A DNA stretch of 64,000 nt from positions 1 through 64,000 of the forward strand of contig NZ_ATVN01000016.1 of NCBI RefSeq assembly GCF_000420745.1, written 5' to 3'. The translations under genes and the position numbers were made by a program. Each line of letters opens with the position of its first letter. The stretch's first letter is position 1. This DNA comes from Pseudorhodobacter ferrugineus DSM 5888 (GTDB lineage: Bacteria; Pseudomonadota; Alphaproteobacteria; Rhodobacterales; Rhodobacteraceae). Under the pieces are notes generated by a model. It saw nothing but the letters and a program-made list of their open reading frames with translations. It had not been told where the DNA came from and searched no databases. Positions 4,787 to 32,222 of this stretch are shown here, piece after piece.

Positions 4787-4821
4787 ATCGGGCCGGGCGC
4801 GGTTTGCGCACGGCCCGATTT
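4787..4821 (+). terminator. Strong hairpin between rpsK and rpoA
   Basis: ATCGGGCCG (4787-4795) pairs with CGGCCCGAT (4811-4819). After one G/A mismatch, GCGC (4797-4800) pairs with GCGC (4806-4809) over a 5-nt loop. TTTCGG follows, with no long U-run. It is probably an attenuating or processing hairpin setting the ratio of S11 to alpha subunit rather than a full terminator. Confidence 0.45.
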
Positions 4822-4892
4822 CGGCATTTCTACATCCTCGGGCGTCGACTGCTTAGGGACATGGGCAGAAGACAAGTATGGAGGCTATACGC

Positions 4893-5909
4893 ATGATCCA
4901 CAAAAATTGGGCCGAACTGATCAAACCGACGCAGCTGGTGGTTAACCCCGGCCCAGACGCGTCGCGCACGGCTACTGTGATCGCTGAACCGCTGGAGCGT
5001 GGCTTTGGCCTAACGCTGGGCAACGCGCTGCGCCGCGTTTTGATGTCGTCGCTGCAAGGCGCGGCCATCACATCGGTACAGATCGACAACGTCCTGCATG
5101 AATTTTCATCCGTAGCCGGTGTGCGCGAAGACGTCACTGACATCGTGTTGAACCTGAAAGGCGTCAGCCTGCGCATGGACATTGAAGGGCCAAAGCGTCT
5201 TTCGATTTCCGCCAAGGGTCCAGGCGTTGTGACGGCTGGCGACATCTCGGAAACAGGTGGGATTGAGGTTCTGAACAAGGATCACGTGATCTGCCACCTT
5301 GATGATGGCGCTGACGTGTTCATGGAACTGACCGTCAACACCGGCAAAGGCTATGTTTCTGCTGACAAAAATCGCCCCGAAGATGCACCAATCGGGTTGA
5401 TCCCGATTGATGCGATCTATTCGCCGGTGAAAAAGGTCAGCTATGAAGTGCAGCCTACCCGTGAAGGTCAGGTTCTGGACTATGACAAGCTGACGATGAA
5501 GATCGAAACCGATGGGTCGCTGACGCCAGATGACGCCGTGGCCTATGCCGCACGCATTTTGCAAGACCAGCTGTCGATCTTTGTGAACTTTGACGAGCCT
5601 GAGTCGGCGACACGTTCGGACGTGGATGATGGGTTGGAATTCAACCCGCTGCTGCTGAAGAAAGTCGACGAGCTGGAACTGTCGGTCCGTTCGGCAAACT
5701 GCCTGAAGAACGACAATATCGTATACATCGGCGATCTGATCCAGAAGACCGAAGCCGAAATGCTGCGTACGCCGAACTTTGGCCGCAAATCCTTGAACGA
5801 AATCAAGGAAGTGCTGTCTGGTATGGGCTTGCACCTTGGCATGGACGTCGAAGATTGGCCGCCAGAGAACATCGAAGATCTGGCCAAGCGTTTTGAAGAC
5901 CAGTTTTAA
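4893..5909 (+). CDS. rpoA: RNA polymerase alpha subunit
   Basis: A 338-residue subunit. The N-terminal assembly domain (~1-235) contains [26 protein letters not shown], the dimer and beta-contact helix region. The C-terminal domain (~250-325) has [17 protein letters not shown] and [17 protein letters not shown], which bind UP elements and activators. The start at 4893 is chosen over 4878 because GGAGG (4880-4884) sits 8 nt before it and [13 protein letters not shown] is the usual alphaproteobacterial N terminus. Two hairpins separate it from rplQ. Confidence 0.98.
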
Positions 5910-12243: not shown

Positions 12244-12947
12244 GCAGTTGGGCGCCAAAACGGTTCTGGAAACAGGCCGAGGTGGTTGCGGCGGAGCATG
12301 GGTTTACCGTGTCTTTGGACGGGCGCGGGCTGAAAACCCCTGCGAAAACCGCGTTTTGGGTGCCAAGCCGCGCATTGGCCGAGGCGGTTGCCGCGGAATG
12401 GCAAGCACAAGACGGCAAAGTGCGGCCCGAAACCATGCCCTATACCCGCACGGCCAATTCGGCGCTGGATAAGGTGATTCCGCAGTTCACGGCTGTGGCT
12501 GATATGTTGGCGGGTTATGGCGGGTCGGATTTGTTATGTTACCGTGCCGAGGCCCCGCAAGAGTTGATCGCGCGGCAAGCGGCTGCGTGGGACCCGCTTT
12601 TGGTATGGACCAAGGTGCATTTCGGGGCTGATTTGACCGTGACCCACGGGATCATGCCGGTTGAGCAACCCGAGCAAAGCCTTCGGGGATTGTCGAGCGC
12701 GGTCCATGCGTTGACCCCGTTCCAGCTTGCAGCCTTCCACGATTTGGTCGCGATTACAGGGTCGCTGGTTATCGCGCTGGCCATTGCGCGGGGACAGGTC
12801 GCGGCTGAGGCAGGGTTTGACCTGTCGCGGATTGATGAGGCTTGGCAGATCGAGCTGTGGGGGGCGGATGAAGAAGCTGCCGAATCCGAGGCCTATAAAC
12901 GCGGCAGTGTTTTACAAGCTGCCCGATTCTTTGCATTGTGTGGGTAA
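12240..12947 (+). CDS. ATP12 family F1-ATPase assembly chaperone
   Basis: A 235-residue homologue of mitochondrial Atp12, which binds the F1 alpha subunit before assembly. The recognised features are the early KRFWKQAEVV and GFTVSLDGRGLKTPAK segment, the LLCYRAEAPQELIARQAAAWDPLL block (~95-118), and a C-terminal IDEAWQIELWGADEEA helix with W and E residues typical of the family. Such bacterial homologues occur mainly in alphaproteobacteria. It overlaps rluC by 4 bp (ATGA). A hairpin after the stop probably ends the crcB-rluC-atp12 transcript. Confidence 0.92.
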   Translation: MSSWAPKRFWKQAEVVAAEHGFTVSLDGRGLKTPAKTAFWVPSRALAEAVAAEWQAQDGKVRPETMPYTRTANSALDKVIPQFTAVADMLAGYGGSDLLCYRAEAPQELIARQAAAWDPLLVWTKVHFGADLTVTHGIMPVEQPEQSLRGLSSAVHALTPFQLAAFHDLVAITGSLVIALAIARGQVAAEAGFDLSRIDEAWQIELWGADEEAAESEAYKRGSVLQAARFFALCG

Positions 12948-12956
12948 CAATCTTGC

Positions 12957-12993
12957 GCAAGAACCCGCCTATCGGGCCTGTTCTTGCATTATT
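12957..12993 (+). terminator. Terminator-like hairpin after atp12
   Basis: GCAAGAAC (12957-12964) pairs with GTTCTTGC (12980-12987). CCG and CGG can pair inside the loop, and ATTATT follows. It lies 9 bp after the atp12 stop. The U-tract is short, so termination efficiency is uncertain. Confidence 0.55.
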
Positions 12994-13069
12994 CCACGCT
13001 AAGACCAGTGAAAACGCACATTCTTTGGTTTGACGATGGGTTGCACTTGACCTTTCAAAGCGGTTCGGA

Positions 13070-13127
13070 CGAAACTGTCCTACGCTGAGGGGGGGATCCC
13101 TCAATCAGTTTCGCCCCGGCGACGGGG
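13070..13127 (+). promoter_or_regulatory. Structured leader RNA upstream of aapJ
   Basis: Three stems can form. CGAAACTG (13070-13077) pairs with CAGTTTCG (13106-13113). GAGGG (13087-13091) pairs with CCCTC (13098-13102) inside it. Directly adjacent, CCCCG (13114-13118) pairs with CGGGG (13123-13127) over loop GCGA. The structure ends ~55 nt before the aapJ start. It does not match any riboswitch class known to me. A role in expression or stability of the binding-protein message is inferred. Confidence 0.45.
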
Positions 13128-13181
13128 CAAGGGAGCAATTAATCCACCTGAAAATGGGTGGGCAATCAGGAAGAGGTAAAA

Positions 13182-14204
13182 ATGAATAAAACCGTATTCT
13201 TCGGAGCAATGACAGCCGCCGTGACGCTTGTCGCTGGTGCTGCATCCGCAACTGTGTTGGATGAAGTCAAAGCCCGTGGTGAATTGAACTGTGGCGTCTC
13301 GACAGGCGTTAACGGTTTCTCGGCTCCGGATTCGGCTGGCGAATGGCAAGGCTTTGACGTGGCAGTTTGCCGCGCTGTTGCCGCTGCCGTGCTGGGCGAC
13401 CCCAAGAAGGTAAAGTTTGTCACAACCACTGGCCAGACCCGCTTTACAGCGCTGGCTTCGGGTGAAATCGACATGCTGGCCCGCAACACCACCTGGACCT
13501 TGAGCCGCGATGCGGACTTGAAGTTTACCTTTGCTGGCGTGAACTACTACGATGGTCAGGGCTTTATGATCAACAAGGCGATGGGCGTGTCTTCGGCTAA
13601 GGAACTGGACGGATCGACCGTTTGTATCCAGACCGGCACCACAACCGAGCTGAACTTGGCTGACTATTTCAAAGCCAACAACATGACCTATGAGCCGGTT
13701 CCGATTGAAACCAACGCAGAAGCACAGCAGCAGTACCTTGCTGGCGCATGTGACGTGTACACCACGGACGCATCTGGCCTGGCCGCAACACGTGCGACAT
13801 TTGCCGATCCAGAAAACCACGCGCTTTTGCCCGAGATCATCTCGAAAGAGCCGCTTGGGCCATTGGTTGCGCATGGCGACGACCAGTGGGCTGACATCGT
13901 TCGCTGGACGATGAACGCACTTGTTGCAGCAGAAGAGCTGGGCATCACGTCGGCAAACATCGAAGAGCTGTCGAAAGGCACCGCTAACCCAGAAGTCGAC
14001 CGTATGTTGGGGTCGTCCGAGGACGATCTTGGTGCGATGTTCGGCTTGGACAAGCAGTGGGCCAAGCGCGCGATTGCGGCTAATGGCAACTATGGCGAAA
14101 TCTTTGCCGCAAACATCGGTGAATCGACCCCAATCGGTCTGGCACGTGGCTTGAACGCGCTTTGGACCCAAGGTGGTTTGCAGTACTCCCCGCCCTTCCG
14201 TTAA
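13182..14204 (+). CDS. aapJ: General L-amino-acid ABC transporter, periplasmic binding protein
   Basis: A 340-residue solute-binding protein. Residues 1-~23 are a signal peptide (FFGAMTAAVTLVAGAASA). The mature protein has the family-3 binding-protein pattern LNCGVSTGVNGFSAPDSAGEWQGFDVAVCRAVAAAVLGD and later TVCIQTGTTTELNLADYF. It delivers a broad range of amino acids to AapQ/AapM. GGAAGAGGTAAAA precedes ATG 13182. The longer frame to 13158 is not supported. A strong terminator right after the stop separates it from aapQ, so the binding protein is probably made in excess over the membrane parts. Confidence 0.96.
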   Translation: MNKTVFFGAMTAAVTLVAGAASATVLDEVKARGELNCGVSTGVNGFSAPDSAGEWQGFDVAVCRAVAAAVLGDPKKVKFVTTTGQTRFTALASGEIDMLARNTTWTLSRDADLKFTFAGVNYYDGQGFMINKAMGVSSAKELDGSTVCIQTGTTTELNLADYFKANNMTYEPVPIETNAEAQQQYLAGACDVYTTDASGLAATRATFADPENHALLPEIISKEPLGPLVAHGDDQWADIVRWTMNALVAAEELGITSANIEELSKGTANPEVDRMLGSSEDDLGAMFGLDKQWAKRAIAANGNYGEIFAANIGESTPIGLARGLNALWTQGGLQYSPPFR

Positions 14205-14220: not shown

Positions 14221-14248
14221 GGGCGCGCCATTGGTGCGCCCTTTTTTT
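14221..14248 (+). terminator. Terminator between aapJ and aapQ
   Basis: GGGCGCGCC (14221-14229) pairs with GGTGCGCCC (14233-14241), with one G-U pair and a 3-nt loop. Seven T follow (14242-14248). It should end most transcripts after aapJ, with some read-through into aapQMP. Confidence 0.88.
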
Positions 14249-14342
14249 CCAACCAATTCGTCAATTCTGACAGATGCGCGGGCAAAGCCCTGACCGCATC
14301 AGAGCGCGATAAAGCGCCAGATCAGACCCAGGGGGAATATCA

Positions 14343-15596
14343 ATGGCGATGACGTCTGAACCATCGGGCAGCTCGTTCCGGCTGAGTATGCTTATCTATG
14401 ATACACGGTATCGATCGATTACGATCCAGATCCTGTTTCTGTTTTTGTTTATGGCGGGCTTTGCGTGGTTGGTTGACAACACGCTGGCCAACCTTGCCCA
14501 AAAGGGCAAAGACATCAACTTTGGCTTTCTTGGCTCGCGTGCCGGTTACGACATCAACCAGATGCTGGTGAATTACACCAACGACAGCTCGCATGCGCGG
14601 GCTTGGATTGTTGGCCTTTTGAATACACTGGTTCTGGCCGTCGCCGCCTGCGCTTCGGCGACCGTCATCGGGGTGATTGCAGGGGTTTTGCGGTTGTCGA
14701 AAAGCTGGATCGTCTCAAAAATCATGACGGTTTATGTCGAGATATTCCGCAACGTGCCGCTTTTGCTGTGGATTATTGTCATTTTCGCGGTTCTTACAGA
14801 AATCACACCGGCGCCCAATGCGTTTCGGGGTGAAAATCCGACCTCGTCTATGTTCTTTTTCGATAGCGTGGCCATAACCAACCGCGGCACCTATCTGCCG
14901 GGCGCATTGTTTGACCGCAGCTTGGGCGATATCAATCTTGGGATCGTGTCTGTCAGCACAAATTACATTGTTCTTATTGCGCTGATCATCGCGAGCATTT
15001 GGGGGTACCGCGCTTTGCAACGCAAGGCGGGAGTTGTGCAAGAGGCGACAGGCGTGCGCCCCGTGACCTGGTGGAAATCTGCGTTGATCCTTATTGCGCC
15101 AACGCTGATTGCCCTGCTCGCGATGGGGTTCCACCTAGAATACCCCGAGCTGAAGGGCTTTAACTTTCAAGGTGGGAGCTATTTGCGCAACTCGTTCATC
15201 GCGATGTGGTTGGCGCTGACGCTGTATACGGGCGCCTTTATCGCCGAGAACGTGCGGGCGGGTATTCTGGCGATTTCCAAAGGCCAAACCGAAGCGGCCT
15301 TTGCGTTGGGCCTGCGCCCGAACAGGACCATGAACCTTGTGATCTTGCCACAGGCGCTGCGGGTGATCATTCCACCGTTGATTTCGCAATACTTGAACAT
15401 CACCAAAAACACATCGCTTGCGATTGCTGTGGGGTATATGGACTTGCGGGCCACTTTGGGCGGCATCACGCTGAACCAAACGGGGCGGGAATTGGAATGC
15501 ATGCTGTTGTTGATGATGACCTATCTGATCGTCAGCCTGATGATCTCCGGTGCGATGAACGTCTACAACAATTCCGTCAAGTTGAAGGAGCGTTGA
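14343..15596 (+). CDS. aapQ: General L-amino-acid ABC transporter permease AapQ
   Basis: A 417-residue inner-membrane permease, longer than HisQ-type permeases because of an insert between helices (~160-240) typical of AapQ/BztB. The first helix is at ~28-48. EIFRNVPLLLWI near 130 marks the His/Glu/Gln permease family. The EAA loop that docks the ATPase is QTEAAFALGLRPNRTMNLVILPQALR near 318-343. ATG 14343 follows AGGGGGAATATCA. The stop is 1 bp from the aapM start, so the two are translationally coupled. Confidence 0.95.
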   Translation: MAMTSEPSGSSFRLSMLIYDTRYRSITIQILFLFLFMAGFAWLVDNTLANLAQKGKDINFGFLGSRAGYDINQMLVNYTNDSSHARAWIVGLLNTLVLAVAACASATVIGVIAGVLRLSKSWIVSKIMTVYVEIFRNVPLLLWIIVIFAVLTEITPAPNAFRGENPTSSMFFFDSVAITNRGTYLPGALFDRSLGDINLGIVSVSTNYIVLIALIIASIWGYRALQRKAGVVQEATGVRPVTWWKSALILIAPTLIALLAMGFHLEYPELKGFNFQGGSYLRNSFIAMWLALTLYTGAFIAENVRAGILAISKGQTEAAFALGLRPNRTMNLVILPQALRVIIPPLISQYLNITKNTSLAIAVGYMDLRATLGGITLNQTGRELECMLLLMMTYLIVSLMISGAMNVYNNSVKLKER

Positions 15597-17948: not shown

Positions 17949-18035
17949 GGCGGCAGTAAAGGCGGGTTGAACTCAAAACTGCACGCGGTCTGCGACAGTC
18001 AGGGACGGCCCCGCACCCTGTTTCTGACCGCAGTA
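17949..18035 (+). mobile_element. IS5-family (IS427-like) transposase fragment
   Basis: A short open stretch encodes GGSKGGLNSKLHAVCDSQGR and PRTLFLTA, the internal motif of IS5/IS427-type DDE transposases just before the second catalytic Asp region. Only ~30 codons remain. The match stops abruptly near 18032, where an IS481-like remnant on the other strand begins, so one element was inserted into, or recombined with, the other. No terminal repeats could be identified. Confidence 0.7.
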
Positions 18036-19027
18036 TTCAGTCCCAGCATCTGGTGGATCGGATTTAGGATGAATCGATCTGGCTCTGAAGTCCAGATCTT
18101 GCAGATGTATTCGTAGGGTGTGAGCCCACCGAGGGTCTTGAGGCTGCGAGCAAAGTTGTAGGCTGCTATGAAGTCCGCGAGATGGGTGCGGCGTTGGTTG
18201 TGGTCGTCGTAGTGGAAACGCTTGACCGTCGCGTCTTTGATTGTGCGGTTCATGCGCTCCACCTGACCGATGGTCCACGGATGGTTTGGCTTGGTAAGGC
18301 GATGTTCGATACCATTGGCCTCACAGATCATGTCGAAACGCATTGGCCTTGAATATGCGGTGTTGCGATTGCGTGGTTGCTCAGCGAACTGGATGTCGTT
18401 GTCCATTGCCCGGCAACACATCCCTGCATGTGTAAAAGGGGGGCAAAATGGTATGGACGCGATAAGGCACTGCTTCGAGCAAGATCTGCAAGAACTCCCA
18501 GGCGGTCTTCCTGTCTGCCTTCTCGACGAGTTGGGTCACGGCAAACTAGCTTGTGCGGTCAATGCCCACGAATATATAGAGCTTGCCTTCAGCGGTCTGG
18601 ACCTCGGCAATGTCGATATGAAAGAAGCCGATGGGGTAGCGCTTGAACTTCTGACGCTTTGGTTTGTCACCTTCCACATCAGGTAACCGAGAAATGCCAT
18701 GACGCTGAAGGCATCGATGCAAATCTGAACGCGTCAAATGCGGGATCGTCGGTTGCAGCGCATAGAGACAGTCGTCCAGCGGCAACAATGTAGGCCGTCT
18801 GAATGCGACGATGGTCGCCTCCTCGGCTTCGGTCAAGGCAGTTGAGCGCGGCTCCCTCGGTCCGGTCTTGAGGTGTCTTCCACGGTCCGGCGTTTGCACC
18901 ACTTCGCTACAGTGTTGGGGTTGATGCCCAGCTGCTTGCTCAACTGCGTGAGCGAAGCTTGCGATCGCTGTATTGCAGCTCTGACGGCGTGCGTGGCCGT
19001 GGCGCGCCCGTAACGAACTTGTCCCAT
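18033..19027 (-). pseudogene. IS481-family transposase, multiply disrupted
   Basis: Reading the minus strand from 19027, the start MGQVRYGRATATHAVRAAIQ and a helix-turn-helix LSKQLGINPNTVAKWCKR fit IS481 transposases. The frame then shifts near 18880 to TGPREPRSTALTEAEEATIV and runs through GFFHIDIAEVQTAEGK (the catalytic DDE start) to an in-frame TAG just after GIDRTS. Coding similarity goes on past it (QLVEKADRKTAWEFLQ). A second shift lies near 18420. The end NHPWTIGQVERMNRTIKDAT ... LGGLTPYEYICKIW is on the first frame again. At least three lesions make it inactive. The end merges with the IS5 fragment at ~18032. Confidence 0.88.
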
Positions 19028-19105
19028 AATGCTTTCTTCCATTCCTGAGAAAGGATTGCACCATCAAACCATGGAATCAAACACCTAGGGTAAGCCTTGA
19101 CCGAT

Positions 19106-32145: not shown

Positions 32146-32222
32146 GCACCCGTAGCTCAGCTGGATAGAGCATCAGACTACGAATCTGAGGGTCGGGCGT
32201 TCGAATCGCTCCGGGTGCACCA
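32146..32222 (+). tRNA. tRNA-Arg (anticodon ACG)
   Basis: A 77-nt cloverleaf with encoded CCA. The acceptor arm GCACCCG pairs with CGGGTGC. The D arm is GCTCAGCTGGATAGAGC. The anticodon stem TCAGA/TCTGA encloses loop CTACGAA with anticodon ACG. The T loop is TTCGAAT with stem GGGCG/CGCTC (one G-U). All universally conserved positions are present. An integrase remnant begins 90 bp downstream, so this tRNA is a likely former attachment site. Confidence 0.97.

Follow-up and report, generated by a model that had tools for sequence, protein, structure and literature searches.

The window analyzed here (the whole stretch of 64,000 nucleotides from Pseudorhodobacter ferrugineus DSM 5888) carries at 13182-14204 the gene for the substrate-binding protein of an amino-acid ABC transporter, aapJ, here called bztA/aapJ; the name bztA is used in papers on relatives. 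Downstream, at 14343, 15598 and 17013, lie two permease genes and an ATPase gene, as in operons of this type. The gap between aapJ and the first permease gene contains a G+C-rich hairpin followed by seven T (14222-14250) which, judged by eye, resembles a partial terminator; the terminator scan did not list it, perhaps owing to the loop limit of that scan. Such a terminator would cause more of the binding protein to be made than of the permeases. Beside the transporter operon, two adjoining open frames lie on the minus strand (17999-19067). In the second, Pfam detects rve_3, an integrase core domain; the first is without a Pfam match, and together they are perhaps a broken or frameshifted IS element. 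The features of the region that precedes and includes bztA are the following:

13047-13052, plus strand: −35 element TTGACC of the aapJ/bztA promoter (TTGAC anchors 80 of 81 aligned upstream regions)
13071-13076, plus strand: −10 element GAAACT, 18 bases after TTGACC and within the DNA repeat arm 13070-13077 (see below)
13083, plus strand: predicted transcription start, placed by promoter geometry 7 nt past the last −10 base
13084-13109, plus strand: 5′-terminal hairpin H1, core UGAGGGG-GGGA-UCCCUCA (13086-13092/13097-13103), predicted by folding from the expected start
13108-13136, plus strand: hairpin H2, core GCCCCG-GCGA-CGGGGC (13113-13118/13123-13128) and lower stem 13108-13112/13132-13136, predicted by folding
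13144-13161, plus strand: hairpin H3, CCACCU-GAAAAU-GGGUGG, ending 20 nt before the start codon, predicted by folding
13166-13178, plus strand: ribosome-binding strip TCAGGAAGAGGTA, single-stranded in the predicted fold and nearly invariant among relatives
13182-14204, plus strand: aapJ/bztA, amino-acid ABC transporter substrate-binding protein, 340 aa, Pfam SBP_bac_3

The upstream region was compared between the window and 80 relatives of the bztA/aapJ locus (81 leaders), almost all from Rhodobacteraceae and with Pseudorhodobacter as the closest. The conserved TTGAC is followed, mostly 18 bases on, by a CAAACT/GAAACT-like hexamer, whose second base is A in 67 and whose last base is T in 66 of the 80 anchored rows. 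Three of the promoter-anchored rows are displaced, one by a single base (L041) and two by 7-8 bases (L057 and L080), and these fall in the tail of the distances between the −10 box and H1.

The initial annotation had described a nested arrangement in which an outer 8-bp stem encloses an inner one and is followed at once by a further small stem. All the arms that it named are present as complementarity in the DNA. CGAAACTG (13070-13077) and CAGTTTCG (13106-13113) are perfectly complementary, TGAGGG/CCCTCA sits within this repeat, and CCCCG-GCGA-CGGGG (13114-13118/13123-13127) comes directly after CAGTTTCG, 55 nt ahead of the ATG at 13182. As an RNA structure the outer stem was not borne out. 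Its 5′ arm CGAAACTG should be absent from the RNA because it includes the −10 box in full and precedes the expected start at about 13083. The nested model draws on an outer pairing that is perfect in the window and also in L018, with one pair type changed; yet at least seven of the eight pairs form in only 4 of the 81 leaders, compared to 2.6% (about 2.1 of 81) in shuffles, the stem is complete in only two of the eight rows of a genus-level alignment of close relatives, and minimum-energy folds do not use it. The −10 box of L112 is intact and the 3′ arm of the outer stem is altered. That 3′ arm pairs instead with GCUGA just past the start. The rival pairing, by which H1 can be extended (13084-13088 with UCAGU at 13105-13109), is better kept, with 5/5 pairs in six of the eight Pseudorhodobacter/Gemmobacter rows and at least three pairs in all eight. 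The nested model was rejected, and we consider it scarcely credible.

When folded from 13083, the RNA forms three separate hairpins one after another and leaves the ribosome strip open (MFE −37.0, z −2.52, 2/200 shuffles as good). A structured leader before aapJ was correctly recognized at the outset, with the layout of a nested pair plus one giving way to three successive hairpins, of which H3 (13144-13161), beside the ribosome site, had been missed. The fold of 13066-13130 has a z of −3.18 relative to dinucleotide shuffles, one in 200 of which is as good. On its own, the stability of the window leader from 13083 is only moderately above that of its shuffles. The first H1 pair lies 8 nt past the −10 box in the window, about +2 from the predicted start, and 8-12 nt past it (about +2 to +6) in 49 of 72 leaders; in part of the leader set H1 is found more than 12 nt past the box or is badly placed.

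Local folding of the 81 leaders, counting hairpins of at least four pairs, yields three hairpins in 65 of them, four in 10, two in 3, five in 2 and six in one. The Pararhodobacter loci L054, L061 and L074 have a longer bztA leader upstream of position 1501, with five or six hairpins. The mean folding z over the 81 leaders is −2.5 and 52 of them lie below −2. For comparison, 23 control leaders that passed the filter were taken from 464 kb of the same genome. Their mean z is −0.90, against −2.47 for bztA leaders, and seven of the 23 are below −1.5. At least three hairpins of at least five pairs are found in 71/81 bztA leaders and 13/23 controls, while a hairpin that stops at the same distance from the ATG as H3 is found in 72/81 and 4/23, respectively. 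Hairpins as such are therefore not rare in these leaders, but their strength and fixed place are. Note that the lowest z among the 23 controls (−4.3) comes from 4790-4822 of the window, where a strong hairpin and a short run of T precede a start codon near 4894; this hairpin may terminate transcription of the gene upstream.

Compensatory changes in homologous leaders, which the initial annotation had itself put forward as its test, were searched for in several alignments. Alignment A1 was assembled leaving out L004, L005, L054, L061, L074 and six near-duplicates. Automatic consensus folding of the MAFFT alignment A2 recovered only part of H3 because stems of unequal length misalign; the structure was therefore drawn by hand on A5, a sequence-only alignment of 10 leaders, from which the covariance model R1 was built. 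Changes on both sides are found in 10 of the 22 pairs in A5, compared to 4.6 in shuffled alignments (0/500 as high), and 76.7% of the cells pair (72.2% shuffled). R1 recognizes the leader in 82 of 88 sources, among them the 10 on which it was trained, and the window scores 45.1 bits (E 2.8e-11). The six sources without a leader match are Paracoccus loci, one of which (L056) matches weakly elsewhere, at 2521. The 82 distinct rows from the R1 matches, including the off-target match of L056, form alignment A6, which was fitted to the model structure and is biased towards it. Within that limit, 85.9% of its cells are paired (67.1% shuffled), double changes occur in 22/22 pairs (H1 9/9, H2 7/7 and H3 6/6 model pairs), and the covariation score is 0.393, compared to 0.155 in shuffles (0/500 as high) and at most 0.090 when the structure is slid. 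H3 has 93.8% of its cells paired. In A7, a single genus-level group of 10 distinct rows, 98.5% of the cells pair and double changes are found in 3/20 pairs, all in H3; this signal is weak, as 35/500 shuffles are as high on double changes and 3/500 on score. Compensatory changes are thus seen in A5 and A6 and weakly in A7. By this comparative measure, with compensatory changes above the controls, the leader is a conserved structured RNA element.

In a sample of the order, the covariance model has a hit (E 0.01 or better) in 139 of 149 genomes and in 67 of 72 genera, nearly always a single one per genome, and all of the 30 best matches, which were inspected, precede bztA. Of the ten genomes without a match, five belong to one genus (g29), possibly Paracoccus. 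The own genome has one strong match (E 2.3e-10); the next has an E of 0.045 and lies in a frame that, by eye, we take to be pntA. A class-wide sample gave matches in 9 of 289 genomes, all four from the same family and five from other families, the latter weak. These five (of 285 genomes) have E values of 1e-4 to 8e-4 and none adjoins a bztA relative. Conversely, such a hairpin array was not seen by eye in 27 loci of bztA relatives from other families. A motif common to other genes was considered and rejected: there are five extra weak hits, in four genomes, and the second-best hit of the own genome, with no bztA relative nearby. Three off-target hits lie in or across frames that, named by eye, are presumably pst genes, a hydroxylase/acetyltransferase pair and pntA. 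A weak model hit in L152 (1501-1605, minus strand) lies ahead of another open reading frame, shows repeats resembling hairpins and a ribosome site rich in purines, and is perhaps a similar leader on a second gene. The best reading of these comparisons is that the element is a Rhodobacteraceae-wide, structure-conserved 5′ leader of bztA/aapJ, in which shape is kept while sequence drifts.

The ribosome-binding strip is conserved in sequence. The exact 12-mer CAGGAAGAGGTA is present in 69 of the 81 leaders picked by protein, and its columns reach 98-100% identity in A6, whose rows were picked by a model that contains the strip. TCAGGAAGAGGTA followed by one to six nucleotides and ATG occurs exactly once in 12 of 31 genomes, each time before bztA, and is therefore not a generic ribosome site; CAGGAAGAGGTA occurs once in the own genome. 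A different strip is found upstream of position 1501 in the Paracoccus loci L026, L042, L049, L056, L060 and L065, where it reads CAACAAAGGGGTAG in five of the six and CAACAACGAGGTAG in L026. All six leaders fold into at least three hairpins despite the altered strip. Since the hairpins are kept and the strip is replaced, structure and strip evolve separately.

It is possible, though doubtful, that TCAGGAAGAGGTA, presented by the hairpins, is used by a trans-acting regulator, either a base-pairing small RNA together with Hfq or a protein that binds RNA, and that regulation of this leader adjusts the uptake of amino acids to the supply of nitrogen or carbon. Ribosome binding would not need a strip so long and so conserved, and CAGGAAGAGGTA has no second copy in the genome. 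In Paracoccus the bzt operon responds to nitrogen, according to the available portion of PMC5424462, and the small RNA MicA targets E. coli ompA, as stated in the part of PMC7509114 at hand. However, no perfect 12-base complement of CAGGAAGAGGTA was found elsewhere in the own genome, opposite strand included, although shorter seeds could serve; the Paracoccus strip differs while the hairpins stay; and a small RNA that targets bztA was not described in the literature, to the extent that its text was accessible. A partner with a perfect antisense match to the strip, encoded in the same genome, was discarded as a candidate. In its widest form, this idea would make the leader a new class of regulatory RNA in the family, an array of hairpins conserved in structure only that offers an invariant strip of 12-13 bases to a trans-acting small RNA or protein and so sets Glu/Gln/Asp uptake. 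We rate this wider claim as speculative; if true, the class would span the Rhodobacteraceae including marine roseobacters.

A ligand-sensing riboswitch, or another metabolite-responsive switch for amino-acid uptake, was also considered. The position of the leader, the function of the gene and the compact conserved fold speak for it. Against it, unpaired columns of A6 outside the ribosome strip show at most 73% identity, leaving no conserved unpaired nucleotides for a binding pocket, and a conserved switch partner is likewise missing. The longest complementarity to the strip averages 5.56 bases in the 81 leaders (5.28 shuffled) and reaches at least eight bases in 5/81, compared to about two expected. 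Conserved sequestration of the ribosome site was rejected because these values are close to those of shuffles, and a scan of 12900-13250 returned no terminator-like site that could act as an alternative structure. Having neither pocket nor switch partner, a riboswitch is very improbable. The sensor role implied when the leader was called a regulatory RNA is thus not supported: no unpaired position outside the strip is strongly conserved and no conserved sequestration is found.

The statement that the leader matches no known riboswitch class was confirmed in Rfam 15, in which it has no family. At the gathering threshold, the only match in the whole window is a tRNA at 32146, and 20 of the 80 relative loci, searched whole, gave no match. 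When the leader alone was searched with E up to 10, the best hit was a plant-virus element on the other strand with 20.5 bits, compared to a threshold of 80. A known riboswitch or other known RNA family was rejected on this basis. A description of the leader was not found in the accessible text of papers on bztA/aapJ leaders, small RNAs, riboswitches and structured RNAs of Rhodobacterales. The main text of a survey of 26 genomes (PMC8632094) describes other Rhodobacterales motifs, and an earlier unnamed listing in its supplementary lists is possible. Among these motifs, uORFC-8-2 (cysS) and HRC-8-4 (cco) resemble the bztA leader in being order-specific structured RNAs from comparative genomics but differ in the genes that they precede, the cysS motif being a proposed ribosome-mediated attenuator and HRC-8-4 terminator-like, as far as that main text goes. 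The trpB-motif, a riboswitch candidate described in the available part of PMC11109978, is like the bztA leader in having at least two hairpins and lying mostly near a possible amino-acid ABC transporter gene, and unlike it in being a proposed ligand sensor; the two are likened here by description.

We infer, with somewhat more confidence than doubt, that the leader is no riboswitch but acts like the 5′ UTR of ompA, which combines a 5′-terminal hairpin with a strong and open ribosome site. A conserved promoter places the predicted RNA start just ahead of H1. H1 would thereby lie at the extreme 5′ end and shield it from 5′-end-dependent decay (RppH/RNase E). As rigid spacers, H2 and H3 would ward off RNase E and competing structure and keep the ribosome strip open, and the binding protein would be made from a stable, well-initiated message. 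The accessible strong ribosome-binding site of the ompA type is represented here by a strip that is unpaired in the predicted fold and by the frequency of CAGGAAGAGGTA given above.

Like the bztA leader as predicted here, the E. coli ompA 5′ UTR belongs to the mRNA of an envelope protein and has a 5′-terminal hairpin with more structure and a strong single-stranded ribosome-binding site. It differs from the bztA leader, which has three hairpins (five or more in Pararhodobacter) and precedes a different class of gene; the likeness is one of architecture, and a sequence relation is not expected. Arnold et al. (1998) reportedly speak in their title of two protective elements in the ompA 5′ UTR. 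According to the available portion of PMC7509114, the mRNA of ompA has high stability in fast-growing cells and, when deprived of its start codon, is still stable if a strong Shine-Dalgarno is present. Works titled on 5′-terminal stem-loops, cited in the accessible part of PMC3997798, were used for the ompA precedent. Within the same family, several hairpins protect the puf mRNA of Rhodobacter capsulatus from endonucleolytic attack (PMC7509114, same portion). The bztA leader differs from this case in belonging to another operon. The 1990 puf paper is said to refer in its title to segments within the polycistronic puf mRNA, not to a 5′ leader.

A 5′ stabilizer alone leaves unexplained why three hairpins, or the exact 12-base strip, are kept. 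The hairpins might instead act purely in translational standby or insulation, freeing the strip of upstream structure and giving the 30S subunit a landing site with no role in decay. This is an unlikely account, despite the fixed place of the hairpin end before the ATG in 72/81 leaders, the strip left unpaired by the predicted fold and the five or six hairpins of Pararhodobacter, not three, which suggest that number matters less than presence. It would not by itself require H1 at the 5′ end; H1 begins within 8-12 nt of the −10 box in 49/72 leaders.

The finding would add a structured leader before an amino-acid capture gene, absent from Rfam 15 and present in nearly every sampled Rhodobacteraceae genome. 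Because the fold is kept while the sequence drifts, these leaders form a clean natural series, with three to six hairpins and with and without the usual strip, which suits the study of 5′ hairpin arrays, decay and translation in alphaproteobacteria.
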